The notes beneath the pieces were generated by a model. It was not told the DNA's origin, did no database searches, and saw only the letters and a list, made by a program, of their open reading frames with translations. Made by a program: the position numbers and the translations under genes. Shown one piece after another: positions 10 through 11,496 of a stretch of DNA of 14,772 bases (the first letter of the stretch is position 1; each line of letters starts with the position of its first letter). This DNA is from Cohaesibacteraceae bacterium (GTDB lineage Bacteria; Pseudomonadota; Alphaproteobacteria; Rhizobiales; Cohaesibacteraceae): NCBI GenBank assembly GCA_016764535.1, contig JAESRR010000186.1, positions 1 to 14,772 on the forward strand. Reading direction: 5' to 3'.

Positions 10-195
10 TGTCACACTGAACTTGTTTCAGTGTCCATAGTTCAGAACCAAAGCCCCTAACAACTGTAGCGATCCACCTGAGCGCTGAACCGGTTTCAGG
101 ACAAACGGGAAGAAACGTGAAAGCAGTGCGTCATAACCAGCACATGGGTTTGCCGCAACGCCGAGCTATGGATGCTGATCTACATCAGCATGACA
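10..195. repeat. Composite REP-like element: paired hairpins L1 and R1 with core
   Basis: Left hairpin at 10-40 is TGTCA, then arms CACTGAA/TTCAGTG around loop CTTGT, then TCCATAG. Right hairpin at 166-195 is the same frame inverted: CTATGGA, arms TGCTGAT/ATCAGCA around CTAC, then TGACA. The two ends therefore act as terminal inverted repeats, each containing its own stem-loop, and both carry an outer CACCC/GGGTG-like extension. The core of about 125 bp has no convincing open frame. Its first 60 bp resemble 2826-2886. No transposase is present, so this looks like a non-autonomous REP/MITE-like element. The hairpins are seen directly; the element class is inferred. Confidence 0.7.
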
Positions 196-264
196 GGGTG
201 GGTTCAGCAAAGTTGGAGAAACCCAAACAATCAGTAATCTGCTCCCGCATTGCCCCACCCTCTG

Positions 265-295
265 TGTCACACTGAACTTGTTTCAGTGTCCATAG
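265..295 (+). repeat. REP-like hairpin L2
   Basis: This is an exact copy of the left-type hairpin at 10-40 (TGTCA, arms CACTGAA/TTCAGTG, TCCATAG). It also shares the flanks CACCC...CTG before and TTCAG after. It lies 65 bp beyond the stop codon of the convergent MFS gene, so it could stabilise that transcript's 3' end. No right-type partner is seen before the gene. Confidence 0.7.
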
Positions 296-359
296 TTCAG
301 CCACACAGCTTGTTTGATCTTTGCTTTGATAAACCTCCGGTGCAACACACATTGGTGCC

Positions 360-1547
360 TCAACCTGTCGCTTCAAACGTCTGCCGCCGCAACATGATAC
401 CAATAATCAATGTTATCACCATTGCAACACCCACCACAGGCAAAGTCAGCACGGCAATAGCCGTCCAGCCAAGCCCGGCATAGAGTGCACCCGAAGTAAA
501 CGCGGCAATTGTTGTTGTCAGCGATATCAGTGTATCGTTAATGCCCTGCAATCCGGCGCGTTCGTTAACGGACAGCAAAGTTTGCAACAGATAGGTGCCG
601 CCGGTAAATCCAAAATTCCAGCCAATGCCGAGCAGGATAAGTGAACCGTAAAAATGCAACAAATGAACGTCAATTATCGCAATAATTGCCGAGAAAGCCA
701 ACAGCGCCATACCCACAAATATGATCAGGATCGGCCCAAACCGGTTGATCAACCAGCCGGTGAAAAACCCCGGCGCAAACATCGCCACCACGTGCCAGCC
801 GATAACTTCGCCTGCCTGGGTTTCTGAAAATCCACTGTCCAGCATTGCAAGGGGTGTGGGGATCATCAGCACCGCCATAATTGCTTGCGCGATCGCCGCA
901 GCGAAGATTGCAAACATCACCGGTTTGCGTTTCAGCACCGCCAGCACATCGACTTTCCTTGTTCCATCCCCTGAAGCAAGCGCGGGTTTTTTCAGGCGCA
1001 ATCCCGATACCGGTAATATACCAATTAGCCCCAGCGCCGCGACGGCCAGATAAGCCCCGGCAAATACCGCCGTTTCAAGATAGTTTTTGGATATCTCGAA
1101 AATTTCCGGCGCGACCAGCGCCGCAACCAGGCCCGAGGCGAGCGTGAACGAGATCGCAGTGGATTTCCATTTGTCCGCCACAGCTTCCGCAGCAGCGAAA
1201 CGAATATATCCAACGCACATCAAAGCGCCACCGAGACAAAAATGCGCCAGACAAAGCAACAGGAAACTCGACCAGACCAACGACAGGGCACCGAGCCCGC
1301 CGCCGGTTATAACAAGCAACGCGCCAACAAGAAAACCGGCTCTGCGTCCAAATCGTCCCATAAACAATGAGACCGGTGCGGCAAAAACCATTCCTGCAAA
1401 AAGCTGGATCGACGGAGGTAACGTTGCAAAGGCCTGATCCGACGCGAGATGGCTCCCTGCCAGAGCACCCAGAATGATCAACATCGGCATTGAAGCGCCA
1501 AGAATGATGTTACTGACCAGCAACAGTATAAAATTGCGATTAAACAT
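360..1547 (-). CDS. MFS transporter, drug-efflux-like
   Basis: This is a 395-residue inner-membrane protein with about 12 hydrophobic segments, the normal length for a major facilitator superfamily permease. The loop between the second and third segments carries GRFGRRAG (residues 64-71), a form of MFS motif A. The start ATG at 1547 is preceded on the minus strand by GGAG with a 5-nt spacer. The protein ends in a short basic tail. The gene is divergent from a GlxA-type regulator, a common arrangement for exporters of small molecules, so that regulator may control it. The substrate cannot be told from the sequence. It could also be a sugar or amino-acid exporter; the MFS assignment is firm, the efflux direction is inferred. 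Confidence 0.85.
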   Translation of the reverse strand: MFNRNFILLLVSNIILGASMPMLIILGALAGSHLASDQAFATLPPSIQLFAGMVFAAPVSLFMGRFGRRAGFLVGALLVITGGGLGALSLVWSSFLLLCLAHFCLGGALMCVGYIRFAAAEAVADKWKSTAISFTLASGLVAALVAPEIFEISKNYLETAVFAGAYLAVAALGLIGILPVSGLRLKKPALASGDGTRKVDVLAVLKRKPVMFAIFAAAIAQAIMAVLMIPTPLAMLDSGFSETQAGEVIGWHVVAMFAPGFFTGWLINRFGPILIIFVGMALLAFSAIIAIIDVHLLHFYGSLILLGIGWNFGFTGGTYLLQTLLSVNERAGLQGINDTLISLTTTIAAFTSGALYAGLGWTAIAVLTLPVVGVAMVITLIIGIMLRRQTFEATG

Positions 1548-1642
1548 GGAAACTCCATACTACTATTTGTGCCACCCGGGGCCGGGCCTGATCCGGCAAG
1601 AATCAAGACTTGACGAAACTGTTGTATCACAGCACTATTTGG

Positions 1643-1671
1643 CCATATTGACATTTAACCTTCAAATATGG
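1643..1671. promoter_or_regulatory. Inverted repeat in divergent promoter region (possible operator)
   Basis: CCATATTG at 1643-1650 and CAAATATGG at 1663-1671 form an almost perfect dyad with a 12-bp gap. It lies between the MFS start (1547) and the regulator start (1679), ending 7 bp before the regulator's ATG. A TTGACA hexamer overlaps the left arm (1648-1653). The placement fits autoregulation by the GlxA-type protein, but no binding is shown. Confidence 0.4.
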
Positions 1672-1678
1672 ACAATTT

Positions 1679-2635
1679 ATGCGCAAGCTGGACATCTTTC
1701 TGTTTGATGGCGTCAACGCACTGGATGTAACCGGAGCGTCTCAGGCTTTTGACGTTGCGAGACGCGCAAACGGTCCCGCCTATGCGCTTTCATATGTCAC
1801 CTTGTCCGGACAATCGGTCACGGCTTCCTGTGGGTTGCGCCTTGGTGCCGACGCGATATTGTCGCTAAAAAGTGAAGCTGATGATCTGCTGGTGCCAGGC
1901 GGAAGTGTTGATCCGCTGCTGCAGGAAACTTACCTGCTGAAAGTTATATCACAATGGCAGGATCGCAAGTCGGACGCACGGCTCATCTCGGTATGTTCGG
2001 GTGCATTGCTTCTTGCCGGAGCCGGAGTTCTGGATGGTCACAAGGCCACAACACACTGGTCACGGCGGGAACAGGCGCTGCGCGATTATCCTCAAATCGA
2101 CTGGCAAACCGATGCAATATTTACCCAAAGCGAAACATTGTTCACATCGGCCGGGGTCACCGCAGGCATCGATCTTGCGTTGGCGATCATTGAACGGGAT
2201 TGCGGGGAAACCGAGGCTTTAAAAGTCGCGCGCGAGCTGGTTGTTTATTTGCGCCGTTCCGGCGGGCAAACCCAGTATTCCGATTTGCTCACTGCACAAT
2301 TCCCCCATGAAGATCGGATTGAGAAACTCATCGCATTGCTCGTTAGCTTCCCTGCACGCCTGTGGACGCTGCAAGCCATGGCCGACGCGGCAGGGATGAC
2401 CGCACGCACCCTGACCCGGAAATTTCAGCACCGTTTTCGGATGCCGCCAATTATGTTTCTGGAGCAAATCCGGGTCCGGCACGCATCGGATTTGTTGACG
2501 TCAGGCACGCAACTTGCCCGGGCCGCCAGCCAAAGCGGATTTGGTGATATGCAGACGATGCGGCGCAGTTTCAAACGCCAGCTCGACATCACTCCGACAG
2601 ATTTCATTCGCAATTTTACCCGGACAGAAGCATGA
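1679..2635 (+). CDS. GlxA-family transcriptional regulator (DJ-1/PfpI + AraC HTH)
   Basis: This 318-residue cytoplasmic regulator has two domains. Residues 1-185 form a DJ-1/PfpI class I amidotransferase-like fold, with the N-terminal LFDGVNALDVTG stretch, the nucleophile-elbow Cys106 in SVCSGALLLA, THW at 125-127 and TSAGVTAGIDLAL near 156. Residues about 215-315 form an AraC-type double helix-turn-helix, with MADAAGMTARTLTRKF in the first unit and AASQSGFGDMQTMRRSFKR in the second. In this family the first domain usually senses a ligand rather than acting as an enzyme. The length is normal. The start at 1679 places the DJ-1 strand at the very N-terminus, as in relatives. A weak GGA lies 8 nt upstream. 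The divergent MFS gene is its likely target. The ligand is unknown. Confidence 0.9.
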   Translation: MRKLDIFLFDGVNALDVTGASQAFDVARRANGPAYALSYVTLSGQSVTASCGLRLGADAILSLKSEADDLLVPGGSVDPLLQETYLLKVISQWQDRKSDARLISVCSGALLLAGAGVLDGHKATTHWSRREQALRDYPQIDWQTDAIFTQSETLFTSAGVTAGIDLALAIIERDCGETEALKVARELVVYLRRSGGQTQYSDLLTAQFPHEDRIEKLIALLVSFPARLWTLQAMADAAGMTARTLTRKFQHRFRMPPIMFLEQIRVRHASDLLTSGTQLARAASQSGFGDMQTMRRSFKRQLDITPTDFIRNFTRTEA

Positions 2636-2700
2636 TTCTCCGTGGCGCAAGCCGGAATGATTGAGTGCAATCGAACTCCATCCCACGCTGCCAGCCGGAG

Positions 2701-2730
2701 CTATGGATGCTGATCGACATCAGCATGACA
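2701..2730 (-). repeat. REP-like hairpin R2
   Basis: CTATGGA, arms TGCTGAT/ATCAGCA around CGAC, then TGACA. This is the right-type hairpin also seen at 166-195, with a two-base change in the loop. It begins 65 bp after the regulator stop codon. No left-type partner lies on its left side; the next hairpin, L3, is 72 bp to its right in the opposite orientation. Confidence 0.65.
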
Positions 2731-2801
2731 CAGTGGATGGAGCGATACCCGCATTACACAACAAATGCCGCTATGTTTCACCAACGTGAATACACCCTCC
2801 A

Positions 2802-2887
2802 TGTCATTCCAGCGAAGGCTGGAATCCATAGTTCAGAACCAAAACCCCCGCCAACTGTAGCGATCTACCCAAGCGCTGGACCAGTTC
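2802..2887 (+). repeat. REP-like hairpin L3 with variant stem, plus conserved core
   Basis: TGTCA, arms TTCCAGC/GCTGGAA around GAAG, then TCCATAG (2802-2831). The frame matches the other left hairpins, but both arms of the stem are replaced together so pairing is kept. The following 55-60 bp match 35-95 with roughly nine substitutions, including AACTGTAGCGATC. The match fades near 2887, where a reading frame resembling a HAD hydrolase takes over. Confidence 0.65.
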
Positions 2888-3093
2888 TCGGTTGAACTGG
2901 AACCGGGTGCGCGAAACTGCATTGCTTTTAAAGACAGCCGTAACAATATCTTGTCAGCCAAATCGGCAGGGCTTATGGTACTGCCACACCGGGCTGGTAT
3001 GCTGGCGGAGATAATTTCCCGGTCTGGCTGGTGGGTGATCTGACAAACCCGCTTGTTTATCAGCTCCTTGCGACCCCGACTGTTCCTGCCTGA
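2876..3093 (+). pseudogene. C-terminal remnant of a HAD-superfamily hydrolase, frameshifted
   Basis: Frame 2 from 2876 reads through a stretch resembling the third motif region of HAD phosphatases of the beta-phosphoglucomutase/CbbY type: NCIAFKDSRNNILSAKSAGL, where FKDS replaces the usual FEDS. Near 2981-2983 the family-like reading moves to another frame, continuing ATPGWYAGGDNFPVWLVGDL and on to a TGA at 3091. Loss of one base at that point would explain it. Nothing corresponding to the N-terminal catalytic DxD, the cap domain or motif II remains upstream; repeat element L3 sits there instead. It is not a paralogue fragment of the intact downstream HAD gene in any obvious way, since the motif sequences differ. 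The remnant call is by pattern and not by alignment search. Confidence 0.6.
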
Positions 3094-3106
3094 TGGATTA
3101 TCATAT

Positions 3107-3775
3107 ATGAAAGCTATAGTTTTTGACCTTGATGGCACACTCATTGACAGTGCGCCTGACCTGCATCAGGCAGCGAATAAATTGCTGGCCGATCTGGATG
3201 ATGACCCTCTGGACCTTGCAACAATAAGATCCTTCATCGGCAATGGTGTCCCCAAACTTGTCGAGCGCTTGCTTGCCGCGCGAAACAGGACGAAGGACAT
3301 TGCGTTTCAGGCGGAGATGACTGAAAATTTTCTGGGCCATTACAATGCAGCGCTTTTTGACAAAACCAGAACCTATCCAGGTGTCATCACTTCCCTTGAA
3401 GTCCTCAAAGGCATGGATATTAAACTTGGTATCTGCACAAACAAACCAGAGCAACCAACCCTCGCCATTCTGGCAGGTTTAAATCTGAATCGTTTTTTCA
3501 CCAGCGTTGTCGGGGGAGACAGTCTCACGGTTAAAAAACCCGCTCCCGAACCACTTTTTCGTGCCTTCAATGCGCTTGGAATCAATGCCGACATGCAGTA
3601 TTCAGACTGTCTTTATGTCGGGGACAGTGAAGTGGATCAGGCAACAGCAAAAGCGGCAAATATTCCGTTTGCATTGTTCACTGAAGGGTACAGAAAATCC
3701 TCCCTTGAAGACATGGCATGTGAGAAAACCTTCAGACATTTTGATCAATTGATAAAAATGGTGCGACCTGGTTGA
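3107..3775 (+). CDS. gph: HAD-IA phosphatase, phosphoglycolate phosphatase-like
   Basis: This 222-residue soluble enzyme has all HAD motifs: DLDGT with the nucleophile Asp7 and acid Asp9 (motif I), Thr111 in ICTNKP (motif II), Lys143/Lys144 in VKKPAPEP (motif III) and VGDSEVD with Asp173 and Asp177 (motif IV). The helical cap follows motif I, and SAPD directly after it is typical of Gph. Gph hydrolyses 2-phosphoglycolate to glycolate and phosphate, clearing a by-product of oxygenation or DNA repair. A longer frame from 3053 exists, but the ATG at 3107 puts the motif I strand at the N-terminus, as usual, with TGATGGA upstream. Related HAD enzymes act on other phosphoesters, so substrate identity is moderate in certainty. 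The gene stands alone between repeats. Confidence 0.8.
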   Translation: MKAIVFDLDGTLIDSAPDLHQAANKLLADLDDDPLDLATIRSFIGNGVPKLVERLLAARNRTKDIAFQAEMTENFLGHYNAALFDKTRTYPGVITSLEVLKGMDIKLGICTNKPEQPTLAILAGLNLNRFFTSVVGGDSLTVKKPAPEPLFRAFNALGINADMQYSDCLYVGDSEVDQATAKAANIPFALFTEGYRKSSLEDMACEKTFRHFDQLIKMVRPG

Positions 3776-3782
3776 CTGTGGG

Positions 3783-3807
3783 AGCAGAGCATCCGCTTTG
3801 CTCTGCT
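3783..3807 (+). terminator. Hairpin after gph, possible terminator
   Basis: AGCAGAGC (3783-3790) and GCTCTGCT (3800-3807) pair perfectly over 8 bp with a 9-nt loop, starting 8 bp after the gph stop codon. There is no following T-run, so it is at best an atypical or Rho-assisted terminator, or a 3'-end stabilising hairpin. Confidence 0.35.
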
Positions 3808-3809
3808 GC

Positions 3810-4037
3810 GTCAGCGAAATACACTCATTTCAGTTATTTACACCGGCATTTCTGCACACTCTGTGTCACACTGAACTTGTTTCAGTGTCCATAGTGCGGC
3901 CATAATGAACCTAATTGCTGTAGTTTGTTCAAGGGCACAGGCTGCCACAAAGGAGTTCGTTCAAGCTCCTGTAATGCACCGCTATTCAAAGTGAAGGATG
4001 CTGATCCACATCAGCATGACAAGATGGGTTTGGCAAG
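3810..4037. repeat. 228-bp tandem repeat, copy 1 (contains hairpins L4 and R4)
   Basis: This copy contains a left-type hairpin at 3864-3894 (arms CACTGAA/TTCAGTG) and a right-type hairpin at 3996-4021 (arms TGCTGAT/ATCAGCA, loop CCAC). Between them is a core of about 100 bp with ATAATGAACCTAATTGCTG and AAAGGAGTTCGTTCAAGCTC. The whole unit recurs 228 bp later with few changes inside the element and more in the outer 50 bp. The short open frame at 3925-4122 is repeated in copy 2 only because the DNA is duplicated, and is not treated as a gene. Confidence 0.8.
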
Positions 4038-4262
4038 GTCAGTGAAACACGATCATTTCAATTATTTACACCAGAAATTCTGCACACTCTGTGTCACACT
4101 GAACTTGTTTCAGTGTCCATAGCGCGGCCATAATGAACCTAATTGCTGTAGTTTGTTCAAAGGCACAGGCTGCCACAAAGGAGTTCGTTCAAGCTCCTGT
4201 ATTGCACCGCTATTCAGAGTGATGGATGCTGATCCAAATCAGCATGACAATGTGGGTTGGGG
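4038..4262. repeat. 228-bp tandem repeat, copy 2 (contains hairpins L5 and R5)
   Basis: This copy sits at a fixed offset of 228 bp from copy 1. Hairpins lie at 4092-4122 and 4224-4249; the second has loop CCAA instead of CCAC. The junction flanks (GTCAGTGAAACACGATCATT here against GTCAGCGAAATACACTCATT in copy 1) show that the duplication covers DNA outside the hairpin pair. This argues for unequal recombination or slippage rather than a second independent insertion. Confidence 0.8.
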
Positions 4263-4305
4263 AACGCTGAAAAAAAGCAATCGTGGTTGTGTTTGTCCAA
4301 CAACA

Positions 4306-4330
4306 CCGTGTCATTACGGCTCCGACACGG
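4306..4330 (-). terminator. Hairpin downstream of the DoxX-like gene
   Basis: CCGTGTC (4306-4312) and GACACGG (4324-4330) pair perfectly with an 11-nt loop, 35 bp beyond the stop of the minus-strand gene. On the minus strand a run of seven T follows only about 30 nt later, so intrinsic termination is uncertain. Confidence 0.3.
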
Positions 4331-4364
4331 AATCCACTCTTTCATCTCCCTGCAACCAATTATT

Positions 4365-6601: not shown

Positions 6602-8068
6602 ATGTGGATTTTGATCAAACCAGTAATGTTGCTTTGTGCTTTCAGTTTTATTGTCGGCATCGGCTCAATTGCATTTGCCGGTGATCCGGTAACAACAGAA
6701 CAGCTCTTCCAGTCGGCTCAATCTTCCAAACTTCGCGCCGATAATGCCGACGTTTATGCTGTCAGGTCCTACCGGGACGCTGCTGCGCGCGGTCATACTG
6801 ACGCTCTGGAACGCCTTGGCTTCATGTATGAGCATGGCCGGGGAATAGACCAGAGCTTTCGCAAGGCACTGATATGGTATCGCAAGGCTGCCAAAAAGGG
6901 GCATAAATTCGCTCAGGAACGTATCGGGTTTTTCTATCAACACGGTCTGGGTGTCACGACAGATACAAAACAGGCGCAGGAATGGTATCGCAAAGCCAAC
7001 AGGCCAGACCAAACCAGCGAACAAAATAACCCCGACAGAATTTACAAATATGGTGACGTCAGCAAAGGCTTGAAACGCCAATTTGTTTCATCCCTTGTTT
7101 CCGCACAGAACGGCGATATTGATGCTCAACAACGCATTGGATCAATGTTTGAATATGGCAGAGGTGTTACGCAAAACCAAAAGAAAGCAATTATCTGGTA
7201 CCGCAAAGCAGCCGAACAGGGCCACGCAATCAGCCAAAACCATCTTGGCAATTTATACGCCAACAGCGACGATGATTCTCCAGACTACAAACCGGCGGTG
7301 GCATGGTACCGCAAGGCCGCCAACCAGGGACTGGTTGCTGCGCAATTCAATCTCGGTAATATGTACACCATAACATTTCGCTATGGATACGGCGTTGCTG
7401 AAGATCCAAAGCAGGCGTTTGAGTGGTATCAAAAGGCTGCCAGTCAGGGCCATGCCGGAGCGCAATATGAACTCGCGCAACTGTATCGATTTGGCAGCGG
7501 TGTTGCAGAAGACAGAAGCCTGGCAACTTACTGGTATACGCAAGCAGCCGATCAGGGTGACCCGGCCGGGCAGGAGATGCTCGACCATATAAACGGGGTC
7601 GACCCCGATAACTCAGAGCCTTCCCCTCCGACTTTGGCGCGCAAAATCAAGTCCGCTGAACAAGGGGATGCTTCTGCGCAAATCAAACTCGCCCGCTTGT
7701 ATGAAAATAGCGTTGGCAGAACTCCAGACCACAGGAAGGCTGTTTACTGGTATCGCAAAGCAGCAGTCCAGGATGATGTGGATGCGCAATATGCCCTTGC
7801 CAGCAAGCTGGAAAAAGGCGAAGGCACAGCAATAAATCCGCAGGAAGCCGCGGAATGGTATTTCACCGCAACAAGCCTCGGGAAATTCGGAAGATACTAT
7901 TATTCATTGACCGAAAGGGAGCAGGACGACTGGAACCCTGCATCTCTAATGGCGTTTCAAACATTGCTCCGCAATGCCGGGTATTATACCGGTTCCATTG
8001 ACGGAGAAACCGGCCCGGGCACCAAAGCCGCAATCAGGGAACTTTGTGATTGCATTTTTGGAAGTTAG
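6602..8068 (+). CDS. Exported Sel1-repeat protein with peptidoglycan-binding-like C-terminus
   Basis: This 488-residue protein has a signal peptide (residues 1-26, ending IAFAG). About eight Sel1-like repeats follow, near 67-102, 103-135, 173-208, 209-244, 245-284, 285-320, 357-392 and 393-428, with the hallmark LGxxYxxGxGV...KAxxWYRKAAxQGH. Sel1 repeats are alpha-helical solenoids that mediate protein-protein contacts. Residues about 444-484 (LMAFQTLLRNAGYYTGSIDG, then GPGTKAA and LCDC) resemble the start of a PG_binding_1 domain. The same tail ends the caspase-like protein at 9823-11496. Repeat 4 is unusual, with acidic NSDDDSPD in place of the glycine loop. The ATG at 6602 abuts GAGG; a TTG at 6611 has better spacing and aligns with the second Sel1 gene, so the start may be three codons later. 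Exact function is unknown. Confidence 0.8.
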   Translation: MWILIKPVMLLCAFSFIVGIGSIAFAGDPVTTEQLFQSAQSSKLRADNADVYAVRSYRDAAARGHTDALERLGFMYEHGRGIDQSFRKALIWYRKAAKKGHKFAQERIGFFYQHGLGVTTDTKQAQEWYRKANRPDQTSEQNNPDRIYKYGDVSKGLKRQFVSSLVSAQNGDIDAQQRIGSMFEYGRGVTQNQKKAIIWYRKAAEQGHAISQNHLGNLYANSDDDSPDYKPAVAWYRKAANQGLVAAQFNLGNMYTITFRYGYGVAEDPKQAFEWYQKAASQGHAGAQYELAQLYRFGSGVAEDRSLATYWYTQAADQGDPAGQEMLDHINGVDPDNSEPSPPTLARKIKSAEQGDASAQIKLARLYENSVGRTPDHRKAVYWYRKAAVQDDVDAQYALASKLEKGEGTAINPQEAAEWYFTATSLGKFGRYYYSLTEREQDDWNPASLMAFQTLLRNAGYYTGSIDGETGPGTKAAIRELCDCIFGS

Positions 8069-8132
8069 CAAGAAGCGATGATTAATCGCCGTAAGCCGAT
8101 CCATTGCGGATTTTGGCTTGCGGAGGGGTTTT

Positions 8133-8354
8133 GTGCTTTTGCAGATAATCCGGCGGTGGCAATTCAGAAAACTGCCAAAGCAGCACCGACCGGTAATTTC
8201 TGCGGCTGTTGATACATTGCAAGACCTGAAAACCGCGCGCAATATCAAACGCCTGACCAATCATCAAAGTGAATACAAGTTACGGGTGGGCAATTACCGG
8301 GTGATTTTTGATCATTTTATTGGCTTGAAAATTATATCTACCAGGGAAGTGTAA
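8133..8354 (+). CDS. RelE/ParE-family toxin, probably shortened at both ends
   Basis: The predicted protein is 73 residues. A perfect GGAGG at 8122-8126 lies 6 nt before a GTG at 8133, which decides the start. The core FRKLPKQ, NIKRLTNHQSEYKLRVGNYR and VIFD is the classic RelE/ParE pattern; such toxins cleave mRNA at the ribosome or poison gyrase, and are neutralised by the adjacent antitoxin. Two oddities stand out. The N-terminus is several residues shorter than usual before the KLPK helix. The protein also stops at STREV just where relatives continue with a basic tail of the kind VKKRxExxY. The next codons after TAA read AAC AGG, so an AAA-to-TAA change could have truncated it. Toxicity is therefore doubtful. 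The antitoxin begins 6 nt after the stop. Confidence 0.65.
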   Translation: MLLQIIRRWQFRKLPKQHRPVISAAVDTLQDLKTARNIKRLTNHQSEYKLRVGNYRVIFDHFIGLKIISTREV

Positions 8355-8360
8355 AACAGG

Positions 8361-8708
8361 ATGACCGGCGATATTGATGTGCAAATTTTATATGATGACG
8401 GCAAACCGGTATTTGCTGTTTTGCCCTGGGAGGATTATCGCCGCCTGATGCGCAGGGCCGATATGCGACCAACCGTGCCCCATGAAGTCGTTGAAGCTGT
8501 GACGATTGAAGGCGTTCCGGCAATCAAAGCGTGGCGAGAATATAGACAAATGACACAGGCCGAAGTGGCGGAGCGTGCCGGGATTACCCGGCCTGCCCTC
8601 GCGCAGCATGAGACAGGCGAGAATTCAATGCGTCAATCCACTCTTGAAAAACTGGCGCAGGCGCTGGGCGTGGTGCCCGAACAACTGACTTTTGACGATG
8701 ATGACTAA
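8361..8708 (+). CDS. XRE-family antitoxin of the RelE-type pair
   Basis: This 115-residue protein has an N-terminal part (residues 1-35: VQILYDDGKPVFAVLPWEDY, then RRLM) resembling the Phd/RelB-like segment of antitoxins that bind RelE-type toxins. A helix-turn-helix of the Cro/C1 type spans about 57-105 (MTQAEVAERAGITRPALAQH, ending LAQALGV), and the tail is acidic (FDDDD). Such antitoxins neutralise the toxin and repress their own operon. The toxin-first order with a 6-nt gap is usual for HigBA-like pairs. No clear ribosome-binding site precedes the ATG (AGG abuts it), so translation may be coupled to the toxin. The antitoxin looks complete although the toxin may not be. Confidence 0.8.
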   Translation: MTGDIDVQILYDDGKPVFAVLPWEDYRRLMRRADMRPTVPHEVVEAVTIEGVPAIKAWREYRQMTQAEVAERAGITRPALAQHETGENSMRQSTLEKLAQALGVVPEQLTFDDDD

Positions 8709-8866
8709 TCAAAAATTCGTGCGTGAGCGGTGCTAACGGGCGGTTTTATTACACCGGATAATTATATGAGCCGGATATGCATCTCTCAGGCGTCGTTCAG
8801 GTTTCGTTCAGCCCCGCTGAAGGAGATTGGCGATCAAAGGATTCTGTCTGTAATTCAGAATTTGGC

Positions 8867-9661
8867 ATGGTGTTCGGAGGATCGTTTGTTTTGATCAGGG
8901 CTGTTATATCAATTTGCGTTCTGCTTGGCTCATTTGCCAACACGCTGACTGTCCAGGCTGCCGGGTCGGTTTCTCCCGCAGAACAAATTGTGCCGATATT
9001 GCCCCACCTCCGTGGCAAGAATTTAAACGGAAACTATCCCAAATACAGATTGTCCCATCAGGTAGCCGCACAACAGGGTGATGCCGAAGCCCAGTACAAT
9101 CTCGGTCTTTTGTACTCCGGGGGTAAAGGTGTTGCGAAAGACTACCGGCAAGCTGTCAAATGGTATCGCAAGGCCGCTGAGCAGGGATATGTTTTCGCGC
9201 AAAACAATCTTGGATTTATGTATCAGACCGGTCGTGGAGTCATCAAGAGTCACAATCAGGCCGCGCTTTGGTATCGAAGAGCCGCCAGACAGGGACATGC
9301 ACGCGGACAATATAATCTGGGCCTTTTATACTATTATGGCAACGGCGTTCCACAAAACTTCCGCGAAGCTGCGATATGGTATCGCAAGGCAGCCGGACAA
9401 GGGCACAGAGCAGGCCAGTTCAATCTTGGATACATGTACGATTATGGCAAGGGCCTTGGCAAAAACCACATCCAGGCTGCGACATGGTACACAAAGGCTG
9501 CGGACCAGGGGCATCGCGCCAGTCAGTACAATCTTGGAATTTTATACGAATTTGGCAAAGGCGTTACGATAAACCATCAGCAAGCGATCTACTGGTACAG
9601 GAAAGCCGCAAAGCAGGGACATATCAAAGCTCGAAATCAACTCCGAAAGCTGCTCAAATAG
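8867..9661 (+). CDS. Exported Sel1-repeat protein (short)
   Basis: From ATG 8867 the protein is 264 residues. A signal peptide runs through LIRAVISICVLLGSF and TVQAAG (cleavage near residue 32). From residue 73 there are five full 36-residue Sel1 repeats in perfect register and a sixth partial one ending the protein. They are very regular, each of the form QYNLGLLYxxGKGVxxxxxQAxxWYRKAAxQGH. Start choice is open: TTG 8891 has GGAGG 10 nt upstream and gives a tidier signal peptide (MIRAVISICVLLG), while ATG 8867 and ATG 8777 lack good sites. Unlike the other two Sel1-bearing proteins nearby it has no peptidoglycan-binding-like tail. It is probably a periplasmic adaptor; partners are unknown. 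It follows the antitoxin gene and precedes the caspase-like gene by 161 bp. Confidence 0.8.
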   Translation: MVFGGSFVLIRAVISICVLLGSFANTLTVQAAGSVSPAEQIVPILPHLRGKNLNGNYPKYRLSHQVAAQQGDAEAQYNLGLLYSGGKGVAKDYRQAVKWYRKAAEQGYVFAQNNLGFMYQTGRGVIKSHNQAALWYRRAARQGHARGQYNLGLLYYYGNGVPQNFREAAIWYRKAAGQGHRAGQFNLGYMYDYGKGLGKNHIQAATWYTKAADQGHRASQYNLGILYEFGKGVTINHQQAIYWYRKAAKQGHIKARNQLRKLLK

Positions 9662-9761: not shown

Positions 9762-9822
9762 ATACGCGAGATTCTACACGTAACTGTGCGGATCGGTACC
9801 GCGTTTGGGGGGACTGCCTGTT

Positions 9823-11496
9823 ATGATATCTCGGCTCATCACATACACATTTGTATGGGTTTCACTAATAGTGGTGACACAGGTAAATGCTGCAAGCCGT
9901 GTCGCTTTGGTCATTGGCAATTCGGCCTATACCGAGGTCACAGCACTTCGCAACCCTTTGAACGACGCAAATGCCCTCGCACAATCGCTAGAGGATCTCG
10001 ATTTCAAGGTCGTGCTGGGCATTGATCTTGACCATCGCTCATTTGCAAAAATAATTCGCAAGTTTGAGAAGGTTTCTACCGGAGCCGATGTAGCACTGTT
10101 TTTCTATGCCGGGCATGGTCTGCAAGTCGATGGCTCCAACTTTCTGTTGCCGGTAGATGCCGCGATTGAGAGTGAAACCGACCTGGCATTTGAAGCAATT
10201 GACCTCAATATAGTTCTCAAAATGATGGAGCGTGAGAAGCGGATCAATCTGGTATTTCTGGACGCATGTCGGGATAATCCGATGTCCCGGAGCCTGTCTC
10301 GATCCATGGGCACGCGGTCATCATCAATTGGAAGAGGACTTGCTCAGGTCAAAAGCGGCTCGGGTACACTCATTGGCTTTGCCACTGAACCCGGCAACGT
10401 CGCACTCGATGGCGAGGGTACGATAAACAGCCCGTTTACGACGGCTCTTCTTAAGCATATCAAGACTCCCAATCTGGATGTTGCACGGCTCATGCGTCGC
10501 GTGCGGGTCGACGTGATGGAAGCAACAAATGGCCGTCAGGTTCCATGGACAAGTGAGTCCCTCACCAGTGATTTCGCGTTTAATACGGGGCGTTCAATTG
10601 CAGTGGTTCCAGCAAAACCCGATTTGCCCGTCAAGGCAGCCGTCATAGAGCCGGTGGTGATTGGTTCCAAAACCAATAATACCCAAACAGAACTGGCGTT
10701 ATGGGATGCCGTGAAAAACAGCAATAGCGTAGAGCTGCTGGAGGAATATCTAAAGCAATACCCCAAAGGAAAGTTTGCTGTTGTCGCACGGTTTCATATC
10801 AAAAACCTATCGCGCGTCAAAACCGCTGCTATTTCAGACGTACCCTTGCCAACAATCTCAAAGAAAACCACGCTCCAATCTCGAAATGCCAGCATAATAG
10901 CCTGTGATCTTGCTGCTGCCGTCCCGTTTAATCCCGACAATCCAGACAACGTCCCCGGTGTATCGTGGAGGGATTTGAGAGCATCGAATGCCATTCAGGT
11001 CTGTGAAACTGCGCGAGCAGAAAACCCGCAAAATTTAAGAATCGCATTTCAGTTGGCGCGTTCATATCAGCGGGGTGGTCAATATAAATCAGCTGCAACT
11101 CTTTATAAACAGGGTGCTGCTGCCGAATACACTTTGGCGCAAACCAGCCTGGCGGAAATATATTTTTTTGGCAAAGGCGTGATGAAGGACCGAAAACAGG
11201 CAGCAAATTGGTATCGCAAGGCTGCTGAACGGGGGGATGCGTACGCGCAAGACAGACTTGCATTTATGTACGAAAAAGGATGGGACATCACAAGAGATCC
11301 AAAGCTGGCCGCTGAATGGTATTACAAAGCCCTTGCTGGCAAACTGAAAAGGGTTTCAAAAATGGATTGGGACATTTCAACTCTGAAAGAGTTACAGCAG
11401 CTTCTCCAAAATTCCGGGTATTATGGCGGAGTGATTAACGGCAAAATGACCACGGGCACAAAGCGTGCAATGGCAGCGCTGTGTAACTGCGGTTAA
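9823..11496 (+). CDS. Secreted caspase-fold peptidase (C14) with Sel1 repeats and PG-binding-like tail
   Basis: This 557-residue protein has a signal peptide (1-24, ending QVNAA) and a caspase p20-like domain at about 25-255. VALVIGNSAY opens the fold, His98 lies in FFYAGHGL and Cys149 in FLDACRDN; both catalytic residues are present. Such peptidases cleave after basic or acidic residues. A WDAVKNS...EEYLKQYPKGKF helical segment (292-322) follows, then a helical region with CDLAAAVPFNPDNP (361-374), two Sel1 repeats (about 436-507) and a tail LQQLLQNSGYYGGVING with GTK and LCNCG (524-557). That tail matches the end of the 6602-8068 protein. The start is ATG 9823, preceded by GGGGGGA; an in-frame TTG at 9805 lies before that site and is rejected. 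The domain order is like that of rhizobial caspase-Sel1 proteins. Substrate and role are unknown. Confidence 0.88.
   Translation: MISRLITYTFVWVSLIVVTQVNAASRVALVIGNSAYTEVTALRNPLNDANALAQSLEDLDFKVVLGIDLDHRSFAKIIRKFEKVSTGADVALFFYAGHGLQVDGSNFLLPVDAAIESETDLAFEAIDLNIVLKMMEREKRINLVFLDACRDNPMSRSLSRSMGTRSSSIGRGLAQVKSGSGTLIGFATEPGNVALDGEGTINSPFTTALLKHIKTPNLDVARLMRRVRVDVMEATNGRQVPWTSESLTSDFAFNTGRSIAVVPAKPDLPVKAAVIEPVVIGSKTNNTQTELALWDAVKNSNSVELLEEYLKQYPKGKFAVVARFHIKNLSRVKTAAISDVPLPTISKKTTLQSRNASIIACDLAAAVPFNPDNPDNVPGVSWRDLRASNAIQVCETARAENPQNLRIAFQLARSYQRGGQYKSAATLYKQGAAAEYTLAQTSLAEIYFFGKGVMKDRKQAANWYRKAAERGDAYAQDRLAFMYEKGWDITRDPKLAAEWYYKALAGKLKRVSKMDWDISTLKELQQLLQNSGYYGGVINGKMTTGTKRAMAALCNCG

Follow-up and report, generated by a model that had tools for sequence, protein, structure and literature searches.

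Head-to-head pairs of unlike hairpins in a Cohaesibacteraceae genome are REPIN-like units assigned by sequence to the CGTC/TGTC superfamily

The 14,772 nt of DNA analysed here (the window; assembly GCA_016764535.1, contig JAESRR010000186.1, Cohaesibacteraceae bacterium, Rhizobiales; the contig starts at window base 1) carries nine short hairpins which, judged by their sequence features, are repetitive extragenic palindromic (REP) elements of the CGTC/TGTC superfamily, arranged in unlike-stem pairs that resemble REPINs (REP doublets forming hairpins) and in tandem arrays. The conserved entity is the head-to-head hairpin pair, a REPIN-like unit of about 131 bp. We consider it probable that these CGTC pairs have stems held under constraint, that stem versions are in part exchanged as blocks, and that the units are recognised by a protein acting in trans. 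The assembly holding the window (3.86 Mb, 302 contigs) is 87% complete and may lack about 13% of the genome.

Hairpins and paired units

The frame TGTCA(18-19 nt)TCCATAG occurs exactly seven times in the window and in none of 200 dinucleotide shuffles (Table 1), and two further minus-strand hairpins keep the stem and tag with a changed tail, CCTTCA at 3992-4021 and CCATCA at 4220-4249. A preliminary description, made from the letters of the window, had listed nine such hairpins; all lie at or beside the places it gave, the two relaxed copies running to 3992 and 4220 (there 3996 and 4224) once their changed tails are included. The three stem versions it distinguished were correct and measure 8 bp in full, ACACTGAA/TTCAGTGT, ATGCTGAT/ATCAGCAT and ATTCCAGC/GCTGGAAT, with perfect pairing in 9/9 hairpins. 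Three complete inverted pairs are present (166/265, 2701/2802 and 3992/4092), together with incomplete ones.

Searched across the assembly with 15-25 nt allowed in the gap, the frame has 64 matches and its reversal 5 (three of the 64 matches, on contigs C4, C68 and C285, are not hairpins); a loose stem pattern that does not require the tail has 115 matches and, when reversed, none, bearing out the expectation that the genome holds further copies. A stem-core pattern run on 16 repeat contigs and the window (17 sources) found 131 hairpins, 104 of which form 52 inverted pairs with their tags facing (head to head, HH), spread over 16 of the 17 sources. The spacer is 69-73 nt long in 46 of the 52 pairs, its sequence differing widely. 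No pair has two like stems (0/52, against 18.5% expected from the pooled stems; one right stem was entered in this tally as GTCATTCC and is truly ATTCCAGC, which leaves the count unaffected). All 52 pairs carry a CTGAT/CTGAC-type hairpin on the left; the one on the right is mostly CTGAA, CCAGC or CCGGA, with ACTCTGAT in two. Stems are 8 bp throughout, starting with AT in ATGCTGAT, ATTCCAGC, ATCCTGAA and ATTCTGAA and without it in ACACTGAA, ACCCTGAT, AATCTGAA and GTCCTGAA; loops are 4 nt on CTGAT and CCAGC stems and 5 nt on CTGAA and CCGGA stems. The tail is CCATAG or CCATCA in most hairpins, and the tag is TGTC in 9/9 window hairpins and TGTC, CGTC or sometimes GGTC elsewhere.

The units, of about 131 nt, often stand in tandem arrays and have been multiplied locally together with their flanks. 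Neither the head-to-head pairing nor the 69-73 nt spacer nor a duplication of period 228 in the window (Table 1) figured in the preliminary description. An alignment of 49 of the 52 units (A1; three units of contig C233 with 88-90 nt spacers were excluded) was made, and a unit model (R1), built on 49 units with window unit 1 among them, has at least 148 matches on 21 contigs of its own assembly, among the 150 of 1243 candidates that were scored and with the two strands of one place counted apart.

Constraint and exchange of stems

Nine tandem arrays were cut by period, their copies aligned and the per-site difference taken by column class. Stems differ at 0.052 (73/1394), about four times less than the other columns (0.218, 1697/7783), with 0.077 for the tag, 0.076 for the tail and 0.137 for the loops. 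The stems lie below the remaining columns in 9/9 arrays, and a stem mask shifted along the arrays gave a rate as low in 0 of 5000 cases. Within arrays the stem sequence itself is kept, beyond its pairing. Since a mutation that copies an arm across to its partner should preserve pairing yet not slow change, we read the low stem rate as selection, which would act on the hairpins or on whatever recognises them.

Complementarity is perfect in 92 of the 104 stems of paired units, so that versions outside the window are likewise mostly paired, the share being an upper estimate because the stem-core pattern favours intact cores. Six of the 12 imperfect stems are arm chimeras, which join arms of two known perfect versions and are non-complementary (two of the six differ by one base pair and are possible point changes). 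What look like paired point changes are seen in ATTCTGAA/TTCAGAAT compared with ATCCTGAA/TTCAGGAT and in the T-A to C-G change at the closing pair in ATGCTGAC. Other changes are of whole blocks: the units C234:10159 and C234:10610, whose spacer cores are 94% alike, have right hairpins ATCCTGAA (loop ATTTG) and ATTCCAGC (loop GAAG), and their final spacer bases differ as well. Spacer cores are at least 75% alike in 59 unit pairs, 44 of which differ in at least one stem, and C233 holds the reciprocal couple ACACTGAA/TTCAGGAC and GTCCTGAA/TTCAGTGT. Such block changes take in the stem, the loop, the loop length and the adjoining spacer end. As stem versions are also transferred in blocks and chimeric arms occur, compensatory mutation explains only part of the variation; units with like spacers carrying different hairpins, together with the chimeras, lead us to infer that stem versions are exchanged by recombination between units.

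The proposal of the preliminary description that both arms change together, implying selection on structure, stands in part. Two-sided changes do exceed those in shuffled and slid controls (see below) and array stems are constrained, but block exchange also occurs and sequence is kept as well as pairing; given the block changes and non-complementary chimeras, joint change of the arms alone is no proof of compensatory evolution.

Fold of the unit

The RNAalifold consensus of the 49 units is a four-way junction in which an outer ATGG/CCAT stem, two side hairpins and an inner GACA/TGTC stem are predicted around a loosely structured central spacer; two-sided change is seen at 10 of its 23 pairs. 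In the named structure 93.5% of cells are paired, against 86.9% in shuffled and 24-42% in slid controls. Cells with two-sided change number 102 against 31.4 (standard deviation 4.2) in shuffles, a value reached by 0/500, and pairs with two-sided change 12 against 9.9 (10/500). At the outer end of the junction the last two pairs fail to form in 25 and 32 of the 49 units. In single-stranded DNA folding the junction is the minimum-energy fold of 7/8 strands, with z of -5.4 and -5.1 for the two strands of unit 1 (166-295) and -6.7 and -6.1 for unit 2 (2701-2831). The predicted four-way junction is thus well supported for intact units and is not universal. No conserved fold was found in the flanks of 46 units, and no report of an unlike-stem four-way junction was found in the literature searched, which is not proof that there is none.

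Relation to known repeats

As characterised by Di Nocera et al. (2013, PMC3733652), CGTC REPs have a CGTC tag, often TGTC (a CCTC variant occurs too), a stem of 8-9 bp whose first two pairs are almost always A-T and T-A, a loop of 4 nt in family 1 and 5 nt in families 2-4, and a CCA tail; HH dimers predominate, heterodimers are common, and grouped elements are rare outside Neisseria and Wolbachia. They are stated there to be without a dedicated transposase, and the authors ask if other enzymes move them or if they are remnants that are dying out. The present hairpins have the tag, the stem length, the loop with CCA tail and the HH heterodimers, and no transposase gene was found for them in the 87% complete assembly. 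With CGTC-1 and CGTC-2 they share the TGTC tag, 8-bp stem, CCA tail, HH heterodimers, predominance in Alphaproteobacteria and lack of an adjacent transposase, the ATGCTGAT and ATTCCAGC hairpins (8-bp stem, 4-nt loop) being like CGTC-1 and the CTGAA hairpins (5-nt loop) like CGTC-2. Unlike the CGTC REPs described there they have a longer tail (CCATAG/CCATCA), a near-fixed 72-nt spacer and frequent tandem arrays, and some stems lack the AT start, departing from an almost invariable feature. The preliminary description, which took REPs mobilised by RAYTs (REP-associated tyrosine transposases) as the nearest analogue, had identified the right kin, but the narrower kin is the CGTC superfamily, to which that text ascribes no dedicated transposase.

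The units also resemble Pseudomonas fluorescens REPINs as presented by Bertels and Rainey (2011, PMC3116915): the inverted REP pair is the unit, tandem clusters include flanks, the spacer is of set length and less conserved than the REPs, and compensatory changes occur. They differ from those GTAG/RAYT elements in their unlike stems, TGTC tag and the absence of a RAYT from what was found; the tag is not GTAG or GTGG as in GTAG REPs, and no cognate REP-flanked RAYT was seen in their own assembly. The neisserial mosaic elements with dRS3 (PMC3898611) likewise interleave CGTC-type short inverted repeats with longer modules in intergenic arrays, but dRS3 is ATTCCC(N8)GGGAAT and is acted on by the phage Nf1 integrase, and no such enzyme was identified here.

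The exact frame with CTGA stems was found in 55 stretches of named genomes (L009-L063), many of them Bacteroidetes and Ignavibacteria metagenome-assembled genomes, with Dependentiae and others too, and the loops CTTGG, CTTGT and TTTAT recur across phyla; the frame itself is therefore not special to this organism. The pattern GTCA..CTGA..TCAG..TCCAT was present in 2 of 121 genomes, its own (97 matches) and that of G027, from the same order (28). R1 matches 17 of 101 genomes including its own, that is 16 of 100 relatives, in these weakly (at most 56 bits, in G036, among the 33 candidates scored per genome); in the relatives' alignments the hairpins again stand head to head, their stems being GC-rich and at times alike (G090).

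Proposed explanation

The explanation that we consider probable runs as follows. Two unlike-stem REPs, facing each other across about 72 nt, make one unit of about 131 bp, which as a single strand is computed to be able to fold into a four-way junction. Units lie between genes, enriched in convergent gaps, and multiply by local tandem duplication with their flanks; the rates of change, with stems almost constant and spacers and flanks drifting, show that constraint persists after duplication. New stem versions would reach units partly by two-sided point changes and partly by exchange of whole blocks between units. The likeliest cause of the constraint would be a protein recognising the folded or palindromic site in trans, by analogy with RAYT on GTAG REPs.

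Several results weigh against this explanation, beside the bias of the stem-core pattern already given. Further pair types, one of five covariation measures, are not raised (22 against 23.9 in shuffles), and related sequences can surpass such shuffles. The decayed unit 3 (3992-4122) gave no four-way junction in single-stranded DNA folding (z -1.9), the centroid fold is two hairpins alone in 2/8 folded strands, RNA folding is mixed (one RNA strand of unit 1 gives a single long hairpin), and with flanks added (46 units) the consensus keeps the outer stem and two hairpins and loses the inner stem. Family searches identified no trans-acting enzyme, and neither an insertion nor an empty site could be demonstrated, leaving mobility unproven.

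Genomic setting and a possible role in RNA

None of the nine window hairpins lies inside an open reading frame (ORF) of at least 150 aa, as the preliminary description had held for intact genes, and 3 of the 131 in the larger set do. With such ORFs taken as neighbours, 37 repeat clusters were surveyed and 16 at contig ends excluded; the 21 classed comprise 8 convergent, 11 codirectional and 2 divergent gaps, against 4, 46 and 17 among 67 repeat-free gaps of the same contigs (Fisher test, convergent excess p 0.0008; divergent p 0.22). This excess in convergent gaps is what might be expected if the hairpins served as 3'-end structures that end or protect upstream transcripts, which would account for the keeping of stems and the location; REPs of the class are reported downstream of genes in PMC3733652, and some stems contain wobble pairs (e.g. 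ATGCTGAC/GTCAGTAT). We hold such a role to be possible but not likely, as a T tract is generally absent (only one of the nine window hairpins, at 4017-3998 on the minus strand, is listed as resembling a terminator, and shuffles average 5.7 sites where the scan gives 4 in all), pairing is alike on both strands with, by inspection, no clear one-strand wobble preference, and the unlike-stem rule and fixed spacer are left unexplained. An identity as intrinsic terminators was rejected, there being no excess of GC stems with T runs and fewer sites than in shuffles. The 16 repeat stretches contain no tRNA genes, and the Rfam families gave nothing but two sub-threshold chance matches.

With repeats masked, mean GC is 0.503 in the repeat contigs against 0.470 in 24 sampled others (Mann-Whitney p 1.4e-7), and by tetranucleotides 17 of the 21 repeat contigs (a set to which the window, C234 and C150 belong) cluster apart from all 24. 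Such a composition would suit islands, a second replicon or contigs of another, co-binned strain; the HAD-type gene of the window matches once in the assembly and has its best relatives within the same family, which mildly favours a single organism. Window unit 2 begins 65 bp past the stop codon of an AraC-type gene, and the window ORFs 6602-9661 and 9805-11496 show Sel1-like repeats by eye, one resembling a caspase-fold protein with such repeats. Among the other stretches, L076:6210-7239 has an in-frame tandem repeat (period 318/159) within a 983-aa ORF, and in L066:1190-3082 two neighbouring ORFs (312 and 311 aa) resemble each other at the DNA level, the first without a Pfam match.

Table 1. 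Hairpins, units and repeated flanks of the window
Feature	Position	Strand	Remarks
Right-type hairpin, stem ACACTGAA, loop CTTGT	10..40	+	exact frame; left partner would fall before contig start
Left-type hairpin of unit 1, stem ATGCTGAT, loop GTAG	166..195	-	exact frame
Right-type hairpin of unit 1, stem ACACTGAA, loop CTTGT	265..295	+	exact frame
Unit 1, head-to-head pair, spacer 69 nt	166..295	+	R1 111.8 bits
Unit 2: left 2701-2730 (- strand, ATGCTGAT), spacer 71 nt, right 2802-2831 (+ strand, ATTCCAGC)	2701..2831	+	both exact frame; R1 111.8 bits
Right-type hairpin, left partner unrecognisable	3864..3894	+	exact frame; weak R1 match 3776-3894, 41.2 bits
Unit 3: left 3992-4021 (- strand, decayed tail), spacer 70 nt, right 4092-4122 (+ strand, exact frame)	3992..4122	+	R1 95.6 bits
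Left-type hairpin of decayed unit	4220..4249	-	R1 match 4220-4339, 58.6 bits
Tandem duplication of unit and flanks, period 228	3810..4258	+	Tandem Repeats Finder: 2.0 copies, 92% matches
Flank downstream of right hairpin	34..111	+	family D5; 79% with 2825-2902
Other copy of family D5 downstream flank	2825..2902	+	79% with 34-111

Search for a mobilising enzyme

The preliminary description had seen no RAYT in the window, and none was found in the whole 87% complete assembly (no match to PF01797 or NF047646), which agrees with the statement in PMC3733652 on the lack of a dedicated transposase. Repeat-flanked genes are the likeliest losses from the missing 13%, and if the repeat contigs were foreign the absence would say less. 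PF01797 is present in 15 of 41 genomes of the relatives search. In the relative G001 some 180 bp separate the best unit match (C1:2722712-2722817) from a gene matching PF01797, a setting that resembled a CGTC REPtron. At L156:8712-9648 of that genome the RAYT-like PF01797 gene (227 aa) is flanked on either side by repeats of the GTAAACTGTCACCG type, and just upstream a CGTC pair stands between repeats of that type. This RAYT was rejected as a dedicated CGTC mobiliser, the gene having terminal repeats of its own (the GTAAACTGTCACCG type) and a second copy having no pair in 12 kb; the two RAYT genes of G027 were rejected likewise, with no CGTC hairpin in L168 and none closer than about 3.7 kb in L169.

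Hairpins might alternatively be recombinase sites, like integron attC or Neisseria dRS3, the blocks between them being shuffled cargo. The modular exchange of hairpins and spacers and the chimeric arms would suit such sites, as would dRS3 itself, a CGTC-1 repeat (PMC3733652) that is an integration target of phage Nf1 and lies in repeat arrays of 200-2700 bp (PMC3898611). We nevertheless think this unlikely: no integron integrase match (TIGR02249) over the cut-off was found in the assembly, which may lack 13% of the genome, the seven weaker matches having their like in control genomes; no hairpin lies within the 3.2 kb stretches around the two IS110-type genes of the assembly; viral contigs contain no frame match and plasmids and phages no unit match; and ordinary homologous recombination between repeats suffices.

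Rather improbable, in our estimate, is the proposal that the unlike-stem junction, with its two protruding hairpins, is the substrate of a non-RAYT enzyme which would cut and rejoin at the hairpins, reassort stems and spacers and spread the units; on this proposal unlike hairpins cannot pair with each other, so that the strand would be forced into the four-way junction. If true, this would be the mobility system so far missing for CGTC REPs. Template switching within quasi-palindromes, in which one arm is copied onto the other, would yield two-sided changes and no selection, and imperfect stems do occur (12/104), but as the source of these patterns it is very improbable, for it predicts pairing and not the fourfold lower divergence of array stems, and leaves the joint change of loops, spacer ends and stems unexplained.

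Biological significance

On the explanation we favour, of paired CGTC REPs with constrained stems, the arrays, shared spacers and chimeric arms are a natural record of how stem versions would be exchanged, and the units offer a testable rule, that no pair has two like stems. CGTC REPs are widespread, and that the stems decay less than their surroundings speaks against their being mere remnants.

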